Shown: piece by piece, positions 120 to 20,205 of the stretch
Layout: each line of letters begins with the position of its first letter
How positions within the stretch are numbered: the first letter of the stretch is position 1
DNA from: a virus
IMG/VR virus record: IMGVR_UViG_3300007072_000035
Coordinates: 1 to 27,029 of that record
Reading direction: 5' to 3' (one strand)
DNA length: 27,029 nucleotides
Translations under genes and position numbers: made by a program
The notes under the pieces: generated by a model
What the model was told of the DNA's origin: nothing
Database searches by the model: none
Seen by the model: the letters and a program-made list of their open reading frames with translations, nothing else

Positions 120-226
120 TAGCGAAGACATTGGAGCTCTTGGGGCTGGCGCTATTCGGGCTGATGATATTACCCGTGCTGCTGACAGTGATCGTTATGC
201 AGATTCTGTTCGGGGAGATCGACTGA
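89..226 (+). CDS. Small membrane protein (45 aa)
   Basis: The reading frame ends at a TGA that overlaps the ATG of the next gene, which suggests translational coupling. From the ATG at 89 the product begins MSSVRYGG and carries one long hydrophobic helix (about residues 15-38). An in-frame ATG at 35 would add 18 residues that are polar and lie inside the previous ORF, so the later start is preferred, although no strong Shine-Dalgarno is visible. No family is recognised. It may act in the membrane together with the preceding 34-aa protein, but nothing in the sequence shows a function. Confidence 0.5.
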   Translation: MSSVRYGGALIAKTLELLGLALFGLMILPVLLTVIVMQILFGEID

Positions 227-987
227 TGATGATCGAGAATCCCATCCGGATCGTACGTGAACTGAAAGGCGCGCCGATCAGCATCGTCTTGGTGCTGGGC
301 TTTGCTGGCCAGCGCGTTACCCAGAAATGGCTGGAGCGAGCCACCGGCTACACCGACAAGCCGGTAAGCCAGGCCCTGGCATATCTGCAGGAGATTGGGT
401 TGGTTGATCATACCCAGGCGGGCTGGCAGTTGACGGCTGCGGCACGCCAGTTGCCGCTGGGGTTGGCGCTGGACGAGGGCGATGGGGAGACAGAGGCGGC
501 TGCAAGTATCCGTGATGAATGCGGCAGCCTGGATGAATGCGGCGGGCAAGGAGACGTGAGTCGGAATATTTCCGACTCGGTTATTATTATTACTACCTCC
601 GAATCAATAATTACGGAGGGAGGAAGTAATAATAATAATAACGAACCGCCAGGTCGGAATTTTTCCGACTCTGACATTTCTCCTCCGGAATTAATCGAGC
701 AGAATCTGGCGGCATTGGGCGCGGCGCGTGTGATTGGGGGGAAGCGCCAGACATTGGCGCGCCTGAAACATGTCACGCCCGCATACGTGCGGGCATGGGA
801 AGCGCAGTTGAAGATGGAACTGGGGGAGCGATACAAACCAGGGATCCTGATCAACACGATTGAGGACGGCGCTCCGGCGCCGCCGGTGCGCGAGAACGGA
901 CACGTGCTTACCTGCGGATGCGATGAGTGCCGCAGGCTAGCCTATCGCTCCTGGGTGATGGATGAGGAAGACGACGAGGGGGAGTGA
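226..987 (+). CDS. Winged-helix DNA-binding protein, putative replication initiator or replisome organiser
   Basis: The N-terminal 75 residues fit a winged helix-turn-helix: hydrophobic helix (ISIVLVLGFAG), recognition-type helix (KWLERATGYTDKPVSQALAYLQ) and a wing ending in GWQLTAAARQL. A low-complexity acidic and Asn-rich linker follows (about residues 85-145, with a run of five Asn). The C-terminal part has a helical segment (LARLKHVTPAYVRAWEAQLK) and a Cys cluster CGCDEC. This order resembles phage DnaD/replisome-organiser-like proteins, in which the linker and C-terminus load helicase; that assignment is inference. The ATG overlaps the preceding stop. The linker DNA carries striking palindromes (558-671), as in phages whose origin lies inside the initiator gene. 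It could instead be a transcription regulator. Confidence 0.6.
   Translation: MMIENPIRIVRELKGAPISIVLVLGFAGQRVTQKWLERATGYTDKPVSQALAYLQEIGLVDHTQAGWQLTAAARQLPLGLALDEGDGETEAAASIRDECGSLDECGGQGDVSRNISDSVIIITTSESIITEGGSNNNNNEPPGRNFSDSDISPPELIEQNLAALGAARVIGGKRQTLARLKHVTPAYVRAWEAQLKMELGERYKPGILINTIEDGAPAPPVRENGHVLTCGCDECRRLAYRSWVMDEEDDEGE
558..671 (+). repeat. Nested palindrome and AT-rich cluster inside the winged-helix gene; candidate origin
   Basis: Two short palindromes with the same core flank a larger inverted repeat. The left one has 9-bp arms GAGTCGGAA and TTCCGACTC around TAT (558-578). The right one has 7-bp arms GTCGGAA and TTCCGAC around TTT (653-669). Between them, 580-601 and 614-642 form an imperfect inverted repeat: GTTATTATTATTACT pairs with the TAATAA-rich right arm, and CCTCCG pairs with CGGAGG, around an AT-rich loop (602-613). 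The cluster is much richer in A+T than its surroundings and encodes a low-complexity linker. Confidence 0.7.
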
Positions 988-1043: not shown

Positions 1044-2918
1044 ATGATCTATCAGATTCCGTTGGAGATTATTATAGGTAACCCGTGGCAGACGCGGGAT
1101 GAGCCAGGTGGCGATTACGTGAAGAATCTGGCGGAGGACATCCGCATGAACGGGCTTCTGCAGCCACCGATGGGCAGGCTGGTGGACGCGGGCGGCAAGT
1201 CGGTGACAGGCGAGCACTTCGCGGCGATGCAGGTTTCGGATAGCTCCTGGGATCACCTGGGCGTCAACGGCTTCCGGGTGCAGCTCGCCTTTGGTCATAA
1301 CCGGCTGGCGGCGTATCAGTATCTAGAAGCGCAATACGACGATCCCCGATGGCAACGGATGCCGGTTGAAATTCGTTTTCTGGATGACCGGCAGATGGCA
1401 GCCTTTGCTTGGAGCGAAAATGAACAGCGCAAGGATCTATCTCCGATCGAGCGCGCCCGGGCAATCAAGAAGCGCATGGACGGCTTCGGCTGGACGCAGG
1501 AACAGGCTGGCAAAGAGCTGGGATTGAGCCGCAGCACGATCGCCAACATCCTGCGCCTGCTGAACCTTCCGGAGGAGATCGGCGCAGAAGTGGATTCAGG
1601 AGTTTTGAGCGAACGCCAGGCGCAGGCGCTGGTGCCGCTCTATGAGGTTCCTGAAGAGGTGCGGCAGACGGCGGAAAAAGTCAACTGGTCTTATATCAAA
1701 CCGAGCGATATCGTCAAAGCGGCAAAGGAGGGAGAGTCCAGCGACCAGATCCGCCTGCGGGTGAAAGCGCTGGTGGAAAACTGCACGGTGCTGCTGAATG
1801 GGGTGCCGTTTCCGATGGATTATGAGTTCGAAACCGAATCCCAAAATGGAGCGGCGATCAAGTCGGCGCGGTGCGAGGGCTGTACGCATCAGATCAGAAA
1901 AGATAAATCGGTCTTCTGCACGGTAAAGGCATGTTTCGAGACCAAGCAGGAAATATGGGGCAAGATGCGACTTGCCAGAGTCAGCGAGGAGATGGGCATC
2001 CCGGCAATCAGCGAGGGGGAGAAACTGACAGAATACTACTTTGAAGGCGATGAGAAGATCCGCCAGGCGATCATCGAGACAACGTGCGAGCATAAACGCC
2101 TGCGGCAGTCGATATGGGGGATCAAAGTAGCCGATGGGATATCACTGGTGTGCTGTCATCCATCAGTGGAGTGCGAGTGCCTGCAACGTATCCAGAAGGA
2201 GATGAAGGAAAACGATCCGGAGGAGAAGGCGCAGCGCGAGCTGAAAGCAAAGTTACAGAAACTATATGATGAGGCGGGGCGGCGGATCGGACAGGCGCTG
2301 GCAGAGGATCACGCGCCGGCGTGGCTGGCGGTGCTGCGACGGATTAGCAAAAATCCGGTCAATGAGAACTGGTCGGCGGAGTTGATCAGGGAGAAGGTCG
2401 GGCGCGAGCTGGTCAAGCCGCAGTTCGTACCCTACGCCGATCTGGAGACGGCGCAGAACGGCGTGGCTGCGGTCCTGAAAGCGATGGGGCTGGAGTCGCC
2501 GGATGAGACCTCGGCGGCGGAGGAAGCGGCGAAGAAGTTCGAACGAATTTGCAAGTGGATAAACAAGCTGAGCGATGATCCGCCGACCGCGGAGGCGCTG
2601 CGAGGGAACATCGCTAACCTACAAAAGATACGCTCCCTCTTGGAGGGCGATCTCGAAGGCGCGGTGGATGACGCGCTCGAGGTCTTGAACGCCGTGCTGG
2701 ACGTGATCCAAGAACCAGACTGGCGGGCGGCAGATTTTCACTGGGTACGGGAAATCTTAGAGCGAGATGCGGGCGCCGGGGATTTCCAGGACTTTATTGC
2801 AGCGGCGCCGGCGGGAGCGGTGCGTTACGTGCTGGCGCTGTTGAAACAGGATGAATACGAGTATGAGACAGGCTTATTGGATGCGGTTTTAGCAGAAGTG
2901 AGCGAGGTGGAAAGATGA
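1044..2918 (+). CDS. ParB-like DNA-binding, putative CTP-binding protein
   Basis: The N-terminus has the ParB/Spo0J/Noc arrangement: NPWQTR (residues 13-18), LAEDIRMNGLLQP (29-41), GHNRLA (84-89, equivalent to the GERR box) and ENEQRKDLSPIERA (125-138, equivalent to ENxQRxxL). A helix-turn-helix follows (about 150-171, GWTQEQAGKELGLSRSTIANILR). In ParB these boxes bind CTP and the HTH reads parS. A roughly 30-residue insertion precedes the GHNR box. A Cys4 module (CEGC at 277-280, C292, C297) and a long helical C-terminus follow. At 624 residues it is about twice the length of chromosomal ParB. No ParA gene is visible, so partition in the usual sense is uncertain. A strong AAGGAG precedes the ATG, and a parS-like palindrome lies just upstream. 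Possible roles are genome organisation, transcription control or prophage-plasmid maintenance. Confidence 0.8.
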   Translation: MIYQIPLEIIIGNPWQTRDEPGGDYVKNLAEDIRMNGLLQPPMGRLVDAGGKSVTGEHFAAMQVSDSSWDHLGVNGFRVQLAFGHNRLAAYQYLEAQYDDPRWQRMPVEIRFLDDRQMAAFAWSENEQRKDLSPIERARAIKKRMDGFGWTQEQAGKELGLSRSTIANILRLLNLPEEIGAEVDSGVLSERQAQALVPLYEVPEEVRQTAEKVNWSYIKPSDIVKAAKEGESSDQIRLRVKALVENCTVLLNGVPFPMDYEFETESQNGAAIKSARCEGCTHQIRKDKSVFCTVKACFETKQEIWGKMRLARVSEEMGIPAISEGEKLTEYYFEGDEKIRQAIIETTCEHKRLRQSIWGIKVADGISLVCCHPSVECECLQRIQKEMKENDPEEKAQRELKAKLQKLYDEAGRRIGQALAEDHAPAWLAVLRRISKNPVNENWSAELIREKVGRELVKPQFVPYADLETAQNGVAAVLKAMGLESPDETSAAEEAAKKFERICKWINKLSDDPPTAEALRGNIANLQKIRSLLEGDLEGAVDDALEVLNAVLDVIQEPDWRAADFHWVREILERDAGAGDFQDFIAAAPAGAVRYVLALLKQDEYEYETGLLDAVLAEVSEVER

Positions 2919-3412
2919 AAAAACAAGGTACAATTTTGATTGTTCTGATATTGCTGGCGATGCGGGTAGGAGGCGCACTTGGCGCGCCGGCGTGCGGATC
3001 GGATTGCCCGCCCACGAGCACGGTGGAAGCGCCGACGAAGACAATCGAACCACCTACAAAAACGTTTAAACCACCTACCTCGACGGCTGAACCCCTAACC
3101 TCGACGCCGGTCATTCCGACAGCCAGCATGACGCCGACCCTCCCCTCGGAGCAGGAAACGCCGACGCCGACCGATATGGAACATCCCAGCGAGACGCCAG
3201 AGATCGCCGATCCGACGCCGACGATTACATCTGATCCAACAGTAACGCCGGAAAATCCGGGGCATCCCAGAAGGACGCCGACGGCAGTCGAGACGCTGCC
3301 GGTGACAGGCGGCGGCGATTTGGGTAAGTTGGGGCTGATGATGGCAGTGATGGCGGCGCTGCTAGGAGTGATTTTCCTTGTCAGGATGGTGCGACATGCC
3401 TTTACCGATTGA
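2915..3412 (+). CDS. Secreted Thr/Pro-rich stalk protein with LPXTG-type sorting signal
   Basis: The ATG overlaps the stop of the parB-like gene (ATGA). Residues 1-24 are a typical signal peptide (MKKQ, hydrophobic core, ALGAPA). Residues 31-65 are five 7-residue units of the form xPPT(S/K)Tx, followed by a long Thr/Pro linker with PTPT motifs. The C-terminus reads LPVTGGG (128-134), then a hydrophobic helix and RMVRH, which is the layout of a sortase substrate: LPXTG, membrane span, positive tail. It is therefore probably anchored to the host wall or membrane with an extended stalk. TPT-rich linkers with LPVTG ends are familiar in Chloroflexota surface proteins. No binding or catalytic domain is seen. 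A role in surface change or superinfection exclusion is a guess. Confidence 0.75.
   Translation: MKKQGTILIVLILLAMRVGGALGAPACGSDCPPTSTVEAPTKTIEPPTKTFKPPTSTAEPLTSTPVIPTASMTPTLPSEQETPTPTDMEHPSETPEIADPTPTITSDPTVTPENPGHPRRTPTAVETLPVTGGGDLGKLGLMMAVMAALLGVIFLVRMVRHAFTD
3005..3109 (+). repeat. Five 21-bp tandem repeats encoding a Thr/Pro heptapeptide
   Basis: The DNA encodes CPPTSTV, EAPTKTI, EPPTKTF, KPPTSTA and EPLTSTP in a row. These are degenerate 7-residue units in the stalk of the LPXTG-type protein. The codons differ between units, so selection at the protein level is more likely than recent expansion. Confidence 0.7.
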
Positions 3413-7083: not shown

Positions 7084-8025
7084 ATGCCAAGTGGGATCGA
7101 TGTACCCAAACGTGAAACGGATTTTCTGTATCCGAAGCCGACGACGGCGCAACGGCTGACGGCGTTTCTGGCTGCCGTAGTTGCCTATCAGGAAGGAATA
7201 GACGAGAGCAGGTATCAGTACTCCGCAACCAGGCGGGTGAATCATGCCGCGGCGTTTCACGGAGGCGTCGCCTTCACGGTGATCCGCGTCTCCAACTGTC
7301 TGAATGCCGATACGTACTTCGAGCAGGCATGGACGGACGCGATGAGTGCGGGTATGCCGATCATGCTCTACGCCAACGTGCAGGGCTACCGGAGTGGGCG
7401 GGAACAGGCGGAGTTTGCCATGCGCACCGCCGAGCCGTTTATCAAAGCCTGCAGGACGAAGGTAGTGATCTGGGGCGATTTTGAGGCGGACGGGCTGACG
7501 ATGTCGGTAGCCAACCGGCAGAAGCTGGCGCTGGAGTTCCTGAACAGCATCCATGCCGCCGGCTATGAGACCGGCATCTACTCCAATCTGAAGTACTGGA
7601 TTGAGATGTATGGAAACCTGAAGCCGCCGGCATGGGCATGGTTATGGGGGGCGCACTGGACCTCGGCGGCGAGCGGTAAGTTCCCATCTTCATGGGATCT
7701 GTCGAGGCTGGCGATCTGGCAGTATGGGATCTGGGACAAGCATGCCTGGGCGAAGAGTGTGCCGGGCAACCAACCGGATATCGATAAGGATCGCTGGATG
7801 TGGCAGGGTGGGGATGTGGTAACGTTCCTGCAAAAGGTGCAGGAGCCGCAACCGCTGCCGCTGGAGGCGCGGGTGAAGGCGCTGGAAGAAATCATCGGCT
7901 GGCATACGTCTGACATCTCCGATCTGCAAAAGATGTTGGATGGGGTGCGGGAAGAGCTGTTCGATGCAAACAACCGGCTGATGGCGCTGGAAGCGCGGGT
8001 AGTGGAGGTGAAAAAAGATGGCTGA
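7084..8025 (+). CDS. GH25 lysozyme (endolysin) with C-terminal coiled coil
   Basis: GIDESRYQ (38-45) matches the first GH25 motif, WGDFEADG (130-137) holds the catalytic D-x-E pair, IWQYG (211-215) and PDIDKDRW (231-238) match the later barrel motifs. GH25 enzymes cut the MurNAc-GlcNAc bond of peptidoglycan. After the barrel, residues about 250-313 are a predicted coiled coil (LEARVKALEEIIGW, then LMALEARVVEVKK), which may oligomerise the enzyme in place of a wall-binding repeat. No signal peptide is visible, so release through a holin is expected. GAGGAGAG precedes the ATG, and the end overlaps the portal gene by 8 bp. Its place between terminase and portal is unusual for an endolysin; a virion-associated role is possible. 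Confidence 0.85.
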   Translation: MPSGIDVPKRETDFLYPKPTTAQRLTAFLAAVVAYQEGIDESRYQYSATRRVNHAAAFHGGVAFTVIRVSNCLNADTYFEQAWTDAMSAGMPIMLYANVQGYRSGREQAEFAMRTAEPFIKACRTKVVIWGDFEADGLTMSVANRQKLALEFLNSIHAAGYETGIYSNLKYWIEMYGNLKPPAWAWLWGAHWTSAASGKFPSSWDLSRLAIWQYGIWDKHAWAKSVPGNQPDIDKDRWMWQGGDVVTFLQKVQEPQPLPLEARVKALEEIIGWHTSDISDLQKMLDGVREELFDANNRLMALEARVVEVKKDG

Positions 8026-9784
8026 TCGAGGGATGACGTTACGTGAACGACTGGTGCGGCTGCTGGGGGGCGTGCCGGAGCGAGATGTGAGGGTGATCCA
8101 GCGCAGGGCATATGAAGCCGGGATGGAGGACGGCAATGATGAGCCGCCCTACACGTCCGGCGGGATGGTGATCACGCGCGGCTATGTGGAGACGGGCAGC
8201 AAGCGGCGTGATCTATCGGCGATCAGCCAGGAGAAGGCGATCGAGGCGAGTTACCGCCTGTGGCAGACCAACCCACTCGCCAAGGCGCTGATCGAGATTT
8301 ATGTGGATTACATCCTCGGCGATGGGGTACGTGTTGTGGCGGAACATCCAGACGTGCAGACGGCGCTGGACACGTTCTGGTTCGACCCGGTGAACGCCCT
8401 GGGCGATCCAGCCGGCGGGATCGGCGAGGGGCTGGAGGAGATCGCGCGTGAAATCTGGCTATTCGGCGAGCTGATCCCGTTGCTCTTCGAGCGCAGTGGT
8501 GAGGATAAAGGCATGGTGGCAGACGGGCTGGTTCGCTTCGCACTGGTGGATCCGTCGAGCATTTATGCCGTGATCACTGACCCGAAGAACGTACGCGATG
8601 AGATCGCGCTGAGGTTGAAGTCAGAGACGGGCGGAGGTGACGGACCGGTATATAAGATCGTGAGGGAAAACCCCGAGAGCGGATTGCTGGAGGGAGCGAC
8701 AAACTTCACCGCCTACCGACAAATTGTCAACGGCAGTACCAGGCAGCGCATCAGCGAGGCAGAGTTGAGGACGATCAGACGGCGCGTTTCGGGGGCTGAG
8801 TGGATCGTGGCAGGCGGCGGGGATGGACGTTTGCAGCTCAGGGAGGCGGAGAACCCGCTGGTCGAGGCGGAGGTAAAAGGGTCGTGCTTTTACTTCCGGG
8901 TGAACAAGATTTCGACCGGCGTGCGCGGGCGCCCGGAGTTGTTGGCGATGATCGACTGGCTGGACCGCTTCGATCAGGTATTCTTCGATGGCGCGGAACA
9001 CGCGGCGCTGCTGAACATGTTTTCGTGGGATCTGAAGATCGAGGGCGGATCGGAAACCAGCCCCGACCCTGAGACCAATTTACGATTGCAGGCGCAGAAG
9101 GTTGCCAAGCTTAAACCGGGCAGCGCCTACGCCCATAACGAGCGGGTCGAGCTGACCGCCAAGAACCCGGACCTGAAGACATCTGACCTGGAGACGCTGA
9201 TCCGTCAGTTGCGGGTGTTCATCGCCGGCGGGGCGCGGGTGCCGGAGCACTGGATCGCCGAGGGAGGTTATACCAACCGGGCGACATCGGCAGAGATGGG
9301 TAAGCCGACGTATCGCATGTTGAGACGCAAGCAGGGCGTGGTGAAGCGCATCCTGACCATGTTATGCCGCTACCAGATCGATGTGCTGGTTGGGCTGGGG
9401 TTGCTATCACGGGAAGTGCCGGTGCTGGGCGAAAATGGTCTGCCGACGGGCAAGACGATCCCGGCGCGGTTGGCATTCCGGGTGGTGATGCCGGACATCT
9501 CGGAGGAAGATACCAATCAGGCGGCGCGCACGCTGGCATCTGTGGCGCAGGCGCTATTGCCGCTGGTGGCGGGTCAGATCATCCCCAAGAAGCCGGCGCT
9601 GGAGGTGCTGGCTGCAGTGCTTGAGCTGCTGGATGTGGAGCTGGATGTGCAGGCGAGCCTGGAAGAGGAGGGCGGGCTGCCGCGGGTCGATCAGACCGTG
9701 CTTGAACTTTTGAAACGGCTGGAGAAGCCAGAGCCATCGCAGGCTGAACCCACGGCGGAGGAAGCCAGGGAGAACGAGGGATAG
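8018..9784 (+). CDS. Portal protein
   Basis: The 588-residue product follows terminase and precedes a MuF-like gene, the standard place for the portal. Family-like features are the early helical AISQEKAIEASYRLWQTNPLAKALIEIYVDYILGDG region, the VDPSSIYAVITDP strand region, and the central region ending in ARVPEHWIAEGGYTNRATSAEMG, which resembles the segment found in many portals before the long wing helix. The tail is acidic. The portal ring is the DNA channel at the prohead vertex and docks the terminase. The start overlaps the endolysin end. Confidence 0.85.
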   Translation: MADRGMTLRERLVRLLGGVPERDVRVIQRRAYEAGMEDGNDEPPYTSGGMVITRGYVETGSKRRDLSAISQEKAIEASYRLWQTNPLAKALIEIYVDYILGDGVRVVAEHPDVQTALDTFWFDPVNALGDPAGGIGEGLEEIAREIWLFGELIPLLFERSGEDKGMVADGLVRFALVDPSSIYAVITDPKNVRDEIALRLKSETGGGDGPVYKIVRENPESGLLEGATNFTAYRQIVNGSTRQRISEAELRTIRRRVSGAEWIVAGGGDGRLQLREAENPLVEAEVKGSCFYFRVNKISTGVRGRPELLAMIDWLDRFDQVFFDGAEHAALLNMFSWDLKIEGGSETSPDPETNLRLQAQKVAKLKPGSAYAHNERVELTAKNPDLKTSDLETLIRQLRVFIAGGARVPEHWIAEGGYTNRATSAEMGKPTYRMLRRKQGVVKRILTMLCRYQIDVLVGLGLLSREVPVLGENGLPTGKTIPARLAFRVVMPDISEEDTNQAARTLASVAQALLPLVAGQIIPKKPALEVLAAVLELLDVELDVQASLEEEGGLPRVDQTVLELLKRLEKPEPSQAEPTAEEARENEG

Positions 9785-11530: not shown

Positions 11531-11546
11531 TGTTTGCGCGCAAACA
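11531..11546 (+). promoter_or_regulatory. parS-like palindrome, second copy
   Basis: This is an exact copy of the 16-bp TGTTTGCGCGCAAACA. It begins at the base after a stop codon and is followed by CATCGGCGGTTT. Its centre lies exactly 36 bp from the centre of the CCGATAA-type palindrome at 11565, the same spacing as at 20190. Confidence 0.7.
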
Positions 11547-20189: not shown

Positions 20190-20205
20190 TGTTTGCGCGC
20201 AAACA
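20190..20205 (+). promoter_or_regulatory. parS-like palindrome, third copy
   Basis: TGTTTGCGCGCAAACA is an exact copy, again starting at the base after a TAG stop. The 26 bases from its start are identical to the copy at 11531, and it lies 36 bp centre to centre from the palindrome at 20224. Confidence 0.7.

Follow-up and report, generated by a model that had tools for sequence, protein, structure and literature searches.

We propose that positions 558-671 of the window, by which we mean the whole 27,029-nucleotide stretch of viral DNA analysed here, form a phage replication origin that lies within its own initiator gene, in frame with the part coding for the disordered linker. The outer palindromes would serve as initiator sites and the centre between them would open in a DnaA-trio-like manner. 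We regard this reading as likely, with a probability of about 0.82; the function is inferred and is not backed by functional data. Terminase, capsid and GH25 genes are present in the window, a 27-kb phage record, and the features needed for the argument are these:

226..987, plus strand: initiator-like gene of 253 aa, with an N-terminal winged HTH, a disordered linker with the putative origin element and a C-terminal helical domain
241..447, plus strand: winged-helix DNA-binding domain with recognition helix GYTDKPVSQAL (basis: alignments, structural model and helix/palindrome correlation)
558..578, no strand: left palindrome GAGTCGGAATATTTCCGACTC, 9-bp arms and 3-bp centre; putative dimeric initiator site (no binding data)
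580..642, no strand: central inverted repeat, arms 580-600 / 622-642; putative unwinding or cruciform element
581..595, minus strand: left trinucleotide tract TTATTATTATTACTA, DnaA-trio-like (basis: class enrichment and the consensus of PMC8287927 and PMC10797057)
624..641, plus strand: right trinucleotide tract AAGTAATAATAATAATAA, on the top strand six trio-like units in a row that face the left tract
653..671, no strand: right palindrome GTCGGAATTTTTCCGAC(TC); putative initiator site (no binding data)
685..867, plus strand: C-terminal helical domain (basis: structural model, full alignment and viral fold matches); partner-binding role inferred

The element and the protein encoded around it

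The anatomy of the element is shown. The left palindrome reads GAGTCGGAA-TAT-TTCCGACTC (558-578) and the right GTCGGAA-TTT-TTCCGAC(TC) (653-669(671)), and the two copies share GTCGGAA-N3-TTCCGAC. The pattern TCGGAANNNTTCCGA occurs at two sites in the whole window, with no further site even at one mismatch, where 0.05 would be expected; none of 100 shuffles reaches two. Between the palindromes, the arms of the central inverted repeat enclose an AT-rich loop of 18 nt (601-618). The left tract, followed on the bottom strand 3'->5' away from the left palindrome, consists of five consecutive (G/A)A(T/A) units. The outer palindromes are mutually complementary, and one nested hairpin is possible over the whole 114 nt. 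Compared with shuffles, the fold of 558-671 is exceptionally stable as RNA (z=-7.8) and as DNA (z=-8.2), with 0/200 shuffles equally stable in either case.

The best central stem scores 17, against 9.0 +/- 1.4 when the linker is shuffled among synonymous codons, and none of 100 such shuffles reaches 17. Because synonymous shuffles never attain the observed stem, the structure in the window is not explained by coding. The original prediction, made from sequence alone, had described two related GTCGGAA palindromes flanking a larger inverted repeat in a coding linker, a middle of AT-rich TAATAA tracts, and a symmetry that coding need could not account for. The first claim held on sequence, uniqueness and shuffles and the last on the synonymous-codon shuffles; the second held in refined form, the middle being tandem trinucleotides (TTATTATTATTACTA and AAGTAATAATAATAATAA) around an AT-rich loop.

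An AlphaFold2 model of the 226-987 protein, built on a 22-row alignment, gives a winged HTH and a helical C-terminal domain, both with pLDDT >90. Linker residues 78-148 have pLDDT <50 and are disordered, and the 558-671 element falls here. The window protein matches MarR_2 weakly in Pfam; a PDB fold search returned generic winged helices only, and a PHROG search gave it no match. Viral fold matches of the C-terminal domain are to phage replication initiator or replisome-organiser proteins (E 0.002-0.05, below conventional significance). Relatives of the gene have weak PHROG matches to phage replication initiation, including phrog_391 'replication initiation O-like' and DnaD-like helicase loaders (best E=0.001-0.012). 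Neither the window protein nor its family relatives matched the Phage_rep_O (PF04492) or RepA_N (PF06970) profile. From sequence and fold similarity we infer that the 226-987 protein resembles a replication initiator, although direct family matches of the window protein itself are weak.

A DNA design conserved across a gene family

Similarity searches with the window protein among phages, plasmids and viral contigs found nothing. The family was first reached solely by a palindrome-pattern scan of viral contigs, and only afterwards by profile searches. The palindrome-bearing genes share an N-terminal domain, NPIR.VRELKGAPLS...GYTDKPVSQAL..., and after profile searching the family comprised 34 genes: that of the window and 33 relatives, in phage contigs and mostly Anaerolineae-type Chloroflexi genomes. 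The profile matched 12 of 396 genomes of the class of an Anaerolineaceae MAG, and one match lay in a Zixibacteria MAG, possibly in a misbinned phage contig. A phylum-wide draw of 400 genomes recovered the known member alone, which argues for a rare, mobile gene. Several members have integrase, ParA or ParB genes close by and therefore look like temperate or plasmid-like phages; such neighbours are compatible with a replicon or prophage module. Two close relatives of the window gene (L087:3435 and L104:5453) have the N-terminal domain and putative origin in common and a different C-terminal region, which suggests domain swapping at the origin linker.

What the family conserves is a DNA design rather than the encoded amino acids. 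CGGAA-N1-5-TTCCG palindromes number 45 in 27.8 kb of family genes and two in 347 kb of other DNA, and the 45 are split 27/11/7 over the three reading frames. Five genes (L087, L093, L099, L104 and L112) each carry palindromes in two frames, and one palindrome is translated variously as SRNNSD, VGKIPT or SENFR. Under synonymous shuffling of 28 genes, 11.7 palindromes with arms >=7 bp are expected and 71 were observed, about a sixfold excess; inverted-repeat strength against synonymous shuffles gives a combined z=23.6 over 34 genes. These family statistics overstate independence, because they rest on related genes, about a third of them located via the palindrome. Frames, palindrome sequences and arms all vary among members. 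The original prediction would have been refuted by relatives that keep the linker protein and lose the palindromes; the opposite was found, the DNA being kept while the protein changes. In one relative (L112:745-1788, minus strand) a 51-bp palindrome with 25-bp arms and a 1-bp centre, containing two nested CGGAA palindromes, lies within the initiator gene.

Recognition helix and palindrome type co-vary, and this too is shown. All 24 members with a '[D/E]K' recognition helix ([ST][DE]K start, e.g. GYTDK, GRSEK) have CGGAA palindromes, compared with 0/10 for other helices; the 24/24 combines 22/22 with the truncated rows L121 and L122, in which the helix has GYSDK. When members found through the palindrome are left out, the association stands at 12/12 versus 0/10, and among representatives below 50% identity it has p=0.00025, a value that treats the truncated L121 row as an exception. 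Several members without such a helix have repeated palindromes of their own: GACTCGCAAAAATTGCGAGTC twice in L098, CGAGGGATGAAAATCATCCCTCG three times in L111 and GAATCATG-N5-CATGATTC twice in L101. It is mainly this co-variation that leads us to think that the encoded winged helix binds the palindromes; the inference is indirect, and there are no binding data.

Trinucleotide tracts and DnaA boxes

The DnaA-trio, 3'-(G/A)A(T/A)-5', makes up with DnaA boxes a basal unwinding system (PMC8287927, PMC6669920, PMC10797057). The composition of the family's tracts is shown: they are mostly TAG/CTA, TAA/TTA or AAG/CTT, which are DnaA-trio classes. Among trinucleotide runs >=10 nt, 29/36 in the family belong to the ACT, AAT or AAG class versus 32/186 elsewhere (p=3e-13, with a 39-fold higher density). 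Out of 144 degenerate triplet patterns compared, that of the trio comes top, occurring in 18/30 linkers versus 2.7% of background. Its lead over overlapping patterns is narrow, so the ranking alone does not single out DnaA-trios. The window meets the mark of at least three consecutive DnaA-trios with a middle A, having five and six consecutive units. In B. subtilis the trios have a set orientation, reading from its DnaA boxes, and the window strands read likewise from each palindrome. The window tracts face inward, as do those of about half of the members, while the rest face outward; orientation to the palindromes is not fixed. In two members, L087 and L104, the inverted repeat persists but is built from less regular tracts; L099 has ATC/GAT arms, and no trio tract was seen in L112 and L115. 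L099:2929-4062, which carries six CCGGAA palindromes together with ATCATCATC/GATGATGATG arms, is an exception to the DnaA-trio classes.

No DnaA box was found in the window gene. The presence of DnaA boxes and DnaA_N domains in relatives is shown. Exact boxes number four in L097, with two on the outer side of each palindrome, and three in L101. In L174, a distant member (profile E=3e-8), a single ORF contains in order a palindrome, TTATCCACA-CTACTACTACTACT, an AT-rich stretch, two boxes and a palindrome. Across viral contigs a DnaA box is followed by CTACTACTACTA within 30 bp at 19 loci, versus four for the reversed tract; these four consist of three identical loci and the opposite side of L174. 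A DnaA_N domain is fused above the Pfam cut-off in L103, L114, L143, L145 and L151, and weakly in L091, L096 and L098. Host oriC regions near dnaA (L158-L164) have DnaA boxes in several cases and no clear trio tract of at least five units, a result that is neutral, speaking neither for nor against the trio reading.

Similar arrangements were observed outside the family. DnaA boxes adjoin (CTA)n tracts inside unrelated phage initiator genes (L165:2666-3754, L166 and L182:5813-6739), which Pfam assigns to Phage_rep_O/DnaB_2 (the O-like gene of L165) and Lin1244_N/DnaB_2 (the Lin1244-like gene of L182). Eight further viral contigs (L167, L169, L170, L171, L173, L177, L179 and L183) have clusters of DnaA boxes followed by CTACTACTACTA, like chromosomal basal unwinding systems. 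It is possible that origins inside initiator genes, with box and trio together, are common among phages.

Mechanism, competing readings and precedents

We propose a model where the winged-helix domain, presumably as a dimer, would bind the two GTCGGAA-N3-TTCCGAC palindromes, a step resting on sequence co-variation. The DNA between them would then open, and host DnaA, alone or in a complex with the initiator, would be led by the inverted trio-consensus tracts onto both strands from opposite sides, as we infer by analogy and from the DnaA boxes and DnaA_N domains of relatives. With DnaA on both single strands, two helicases could load, and the C-terminal domain may recruit partners. The linker peptide is probably a mere spacer, as in plasmid pSK41 Rep.

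The original prediction had placed an origin inside the initiator gene, where the initiator could bind the outer palindromes and the middle could melt or form a cruciform. This is supported because relatives keep the palindromes at the DNA level through changing frames, because palindrome sequence co-varies with the recognition helix, because relatives have exact DnaA boxes beside the same core as well as fused DnaA N-terminal domains, and because weak family and fold matches point to phage replication initiators; the function itself remains inferred and is not shown. The expectation of a GC-skew signal failed: neither in the window nor in ten relatives' contigs, including a 33.7-kb contig with a terminal repeat, does the skew switch at the element, and it mainly tracks gene strand. 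This absence, in a skew that is uninformative on where replication starts, counts against the origin reading, as do the lack of a DnaA box in the window gene, the variable tract orientation, and the irregular or absent tracts of some relatives.

Two rivals, both unlikely, concern the tracts and leave the origin reading intact. According to the first, primase would start at the CTA/TTA tracts, on either strand, and these would not be DnaA-trios. The trinucleotides 5'-CTA and 5'-TTA are preferred starts of several Firmicute primases (PMC5204125), both arm orientations place CTA/TTA arrays on both strands, and pSK41 Rep, a parallel case, binds primase (PMC5703833). However, the CTT/AAG tracts of L077, L121 and L122 are not such start sites, the DnaA boxes and DnaA_N domains indicate DnaA, and the box-to-tract orientation is biased 19 to 4. 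According to the second, the element is an origin or autoregulatory site whose centre works chiefly through an extruded cruciform or a single-strand hairpin, with the identity of the arm bases of little weight. Arm complementarity persists whichever way the tracts are oriented and also where other repeats make up the arms (L099, L104), and the fold is very stable. Yet the arms lie almost wholly within three of ten possible trinucleotide classes, which a hairpin alone would not need, and in some members (L115, L151, L102) the arms are no more than weak.

The remaining rivals fare worse. It is very unlikely that the palindromes are a centromere bound by the neighbouring ParB (1044-2918). A ParB-like gene does lie directly downstream, and ParB genes occur near some relatives, but a separate parS-like palindrome, TGTTTGCGCGCAAACA, is present in the window at 11531, at 20190 and, just ahead of the ParB gene, at 995; palindrome type goes with the wHTH recognition helix; and ORF lists, the only evidence on this point, show no ParB-like ORF next to L105, L106 or L100. 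We give similarly little credence to a transcriptional or RNA element within the gene, whether operator, attenuator or terminator. The left palindrome with its T-rich tail scores as terminator-like and the RNA fold is strong, but a mid-gene site of this kind would truncate the protein, relatives have DnaA boxes, and a single terminator-like site compares with 0.6 expected by chance; an Rfam search gave no match for the element. An in-frame mobile palindromic repeat like the Rickettsia palindromic elements would suit a palindromic in-frame insert in a disordered linker, but is made very unlikely by the lack of a copy elsewhere in the window and by restriction to this gene family at a matching position with family-specific sequences.

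The preferred reading, an origin within its initiator gene, is a workable arrangement because lambda, SPP1 oriL (PMC6316719) and pSK41 Rep (PMC5703833) have it, and origins of this kind are already known from these systems. Repeated dyad sites inside the coding region of a gene for a DNA-binding protein are likewise present in 226-987. Lambda O and ori-lambda combine an origin in the initiator gene, an N-terminal wHTH, dyad-symmetric sites and an AT-rich neighbour. Lambda differs in having four tandem iterons on one side, whereas the window has a pair of sites flanking the core, trinucleotide tracts and no PF04492 match. SPP1 oriL, in gene 38, also places the initiator's sites within its own gene beside an AT-rich element, but with direct-repeat sites, an unrelated initiator sequence and no trio tracts described (PMC6316719). 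In pSK41 Rep (RepA_N), the wHTH N-terminal domain recognises boxes located where its own gene encodes the central linker, the linker peptide is dispensable and a separate C-terminal domain recruits replisome partners (PMC5703833); the window differs in lacking a RepA_N (PF06970) match and in its palindromes and inverted trinucleotide core. The bacterial basal unwinding system (PMC6669920, PMC8287927) shares consecutive (G/A)A(T/A) trinucleotides next to initiator sites and, in some relatives, tandem DnaA boxes. It differs from the window, where the tracts form an inverted pair, in coding sequence, flanked by phage palindromes and not by DnaA boxes. In the literature searched, outside which most subscription papers fell, this initiator family was not described, inverted DnaA-trio-like tracts were not reported, and no paper placed DnaA-trios in a phage origin.

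It is tempting to go further, and here we could argue either side: the element may be a symmetric bidirectional opening device within the initiator frame, with helix and palindrome co-evolving in one gene, and DnaA-trios may be general in phage origins, not confined to chromosomes. On this bolder reading the protein code would be bent around a DNA signal, one palindrome being translated in all three frames. If the tracts are DnaA-trios, phages share the bacterial chromosome-opening code, in a mirrored version that works from two sides and bears on two-helicase loading. For phages of a host group in which laboratory phages are scarce, the family further provides predicted origins as well as initiator/site pairs. 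It is also a natural test of initiator/origin co-evolution, in which site and protein lie within the same few hundred bases and change jointly. A searchable signature of phage origins is offered by a low-complexity linker that lies between palindromes and codes for VDN together with SSSS/TTTT/NNNN runs.

Three other features of the window deserve mention. TGTTTGCGCGCAAACA is an intergenic 16-bp palindrome with exact copies at 995-1010, 11531-11546 and 20190-20205 and a degenerate copy at 26206-26221; because its flanks agree with the parS ends TGTTT/AAACA, the copies may be ParB sites, the first of them lying just upstream of the ParB-like gene 1044-2918. The ORF at 2915-3412 encodes Thr/Pro-rich repeats and ends in LPVTGGGDLGK and a hydrophobic tail, like a surface-anchored protein, here in a phage. 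A GH25 muramidase-like gene (7084-8025) sits between the terminase and the next long ORF (8018-9784), an unusual position for a lysin.
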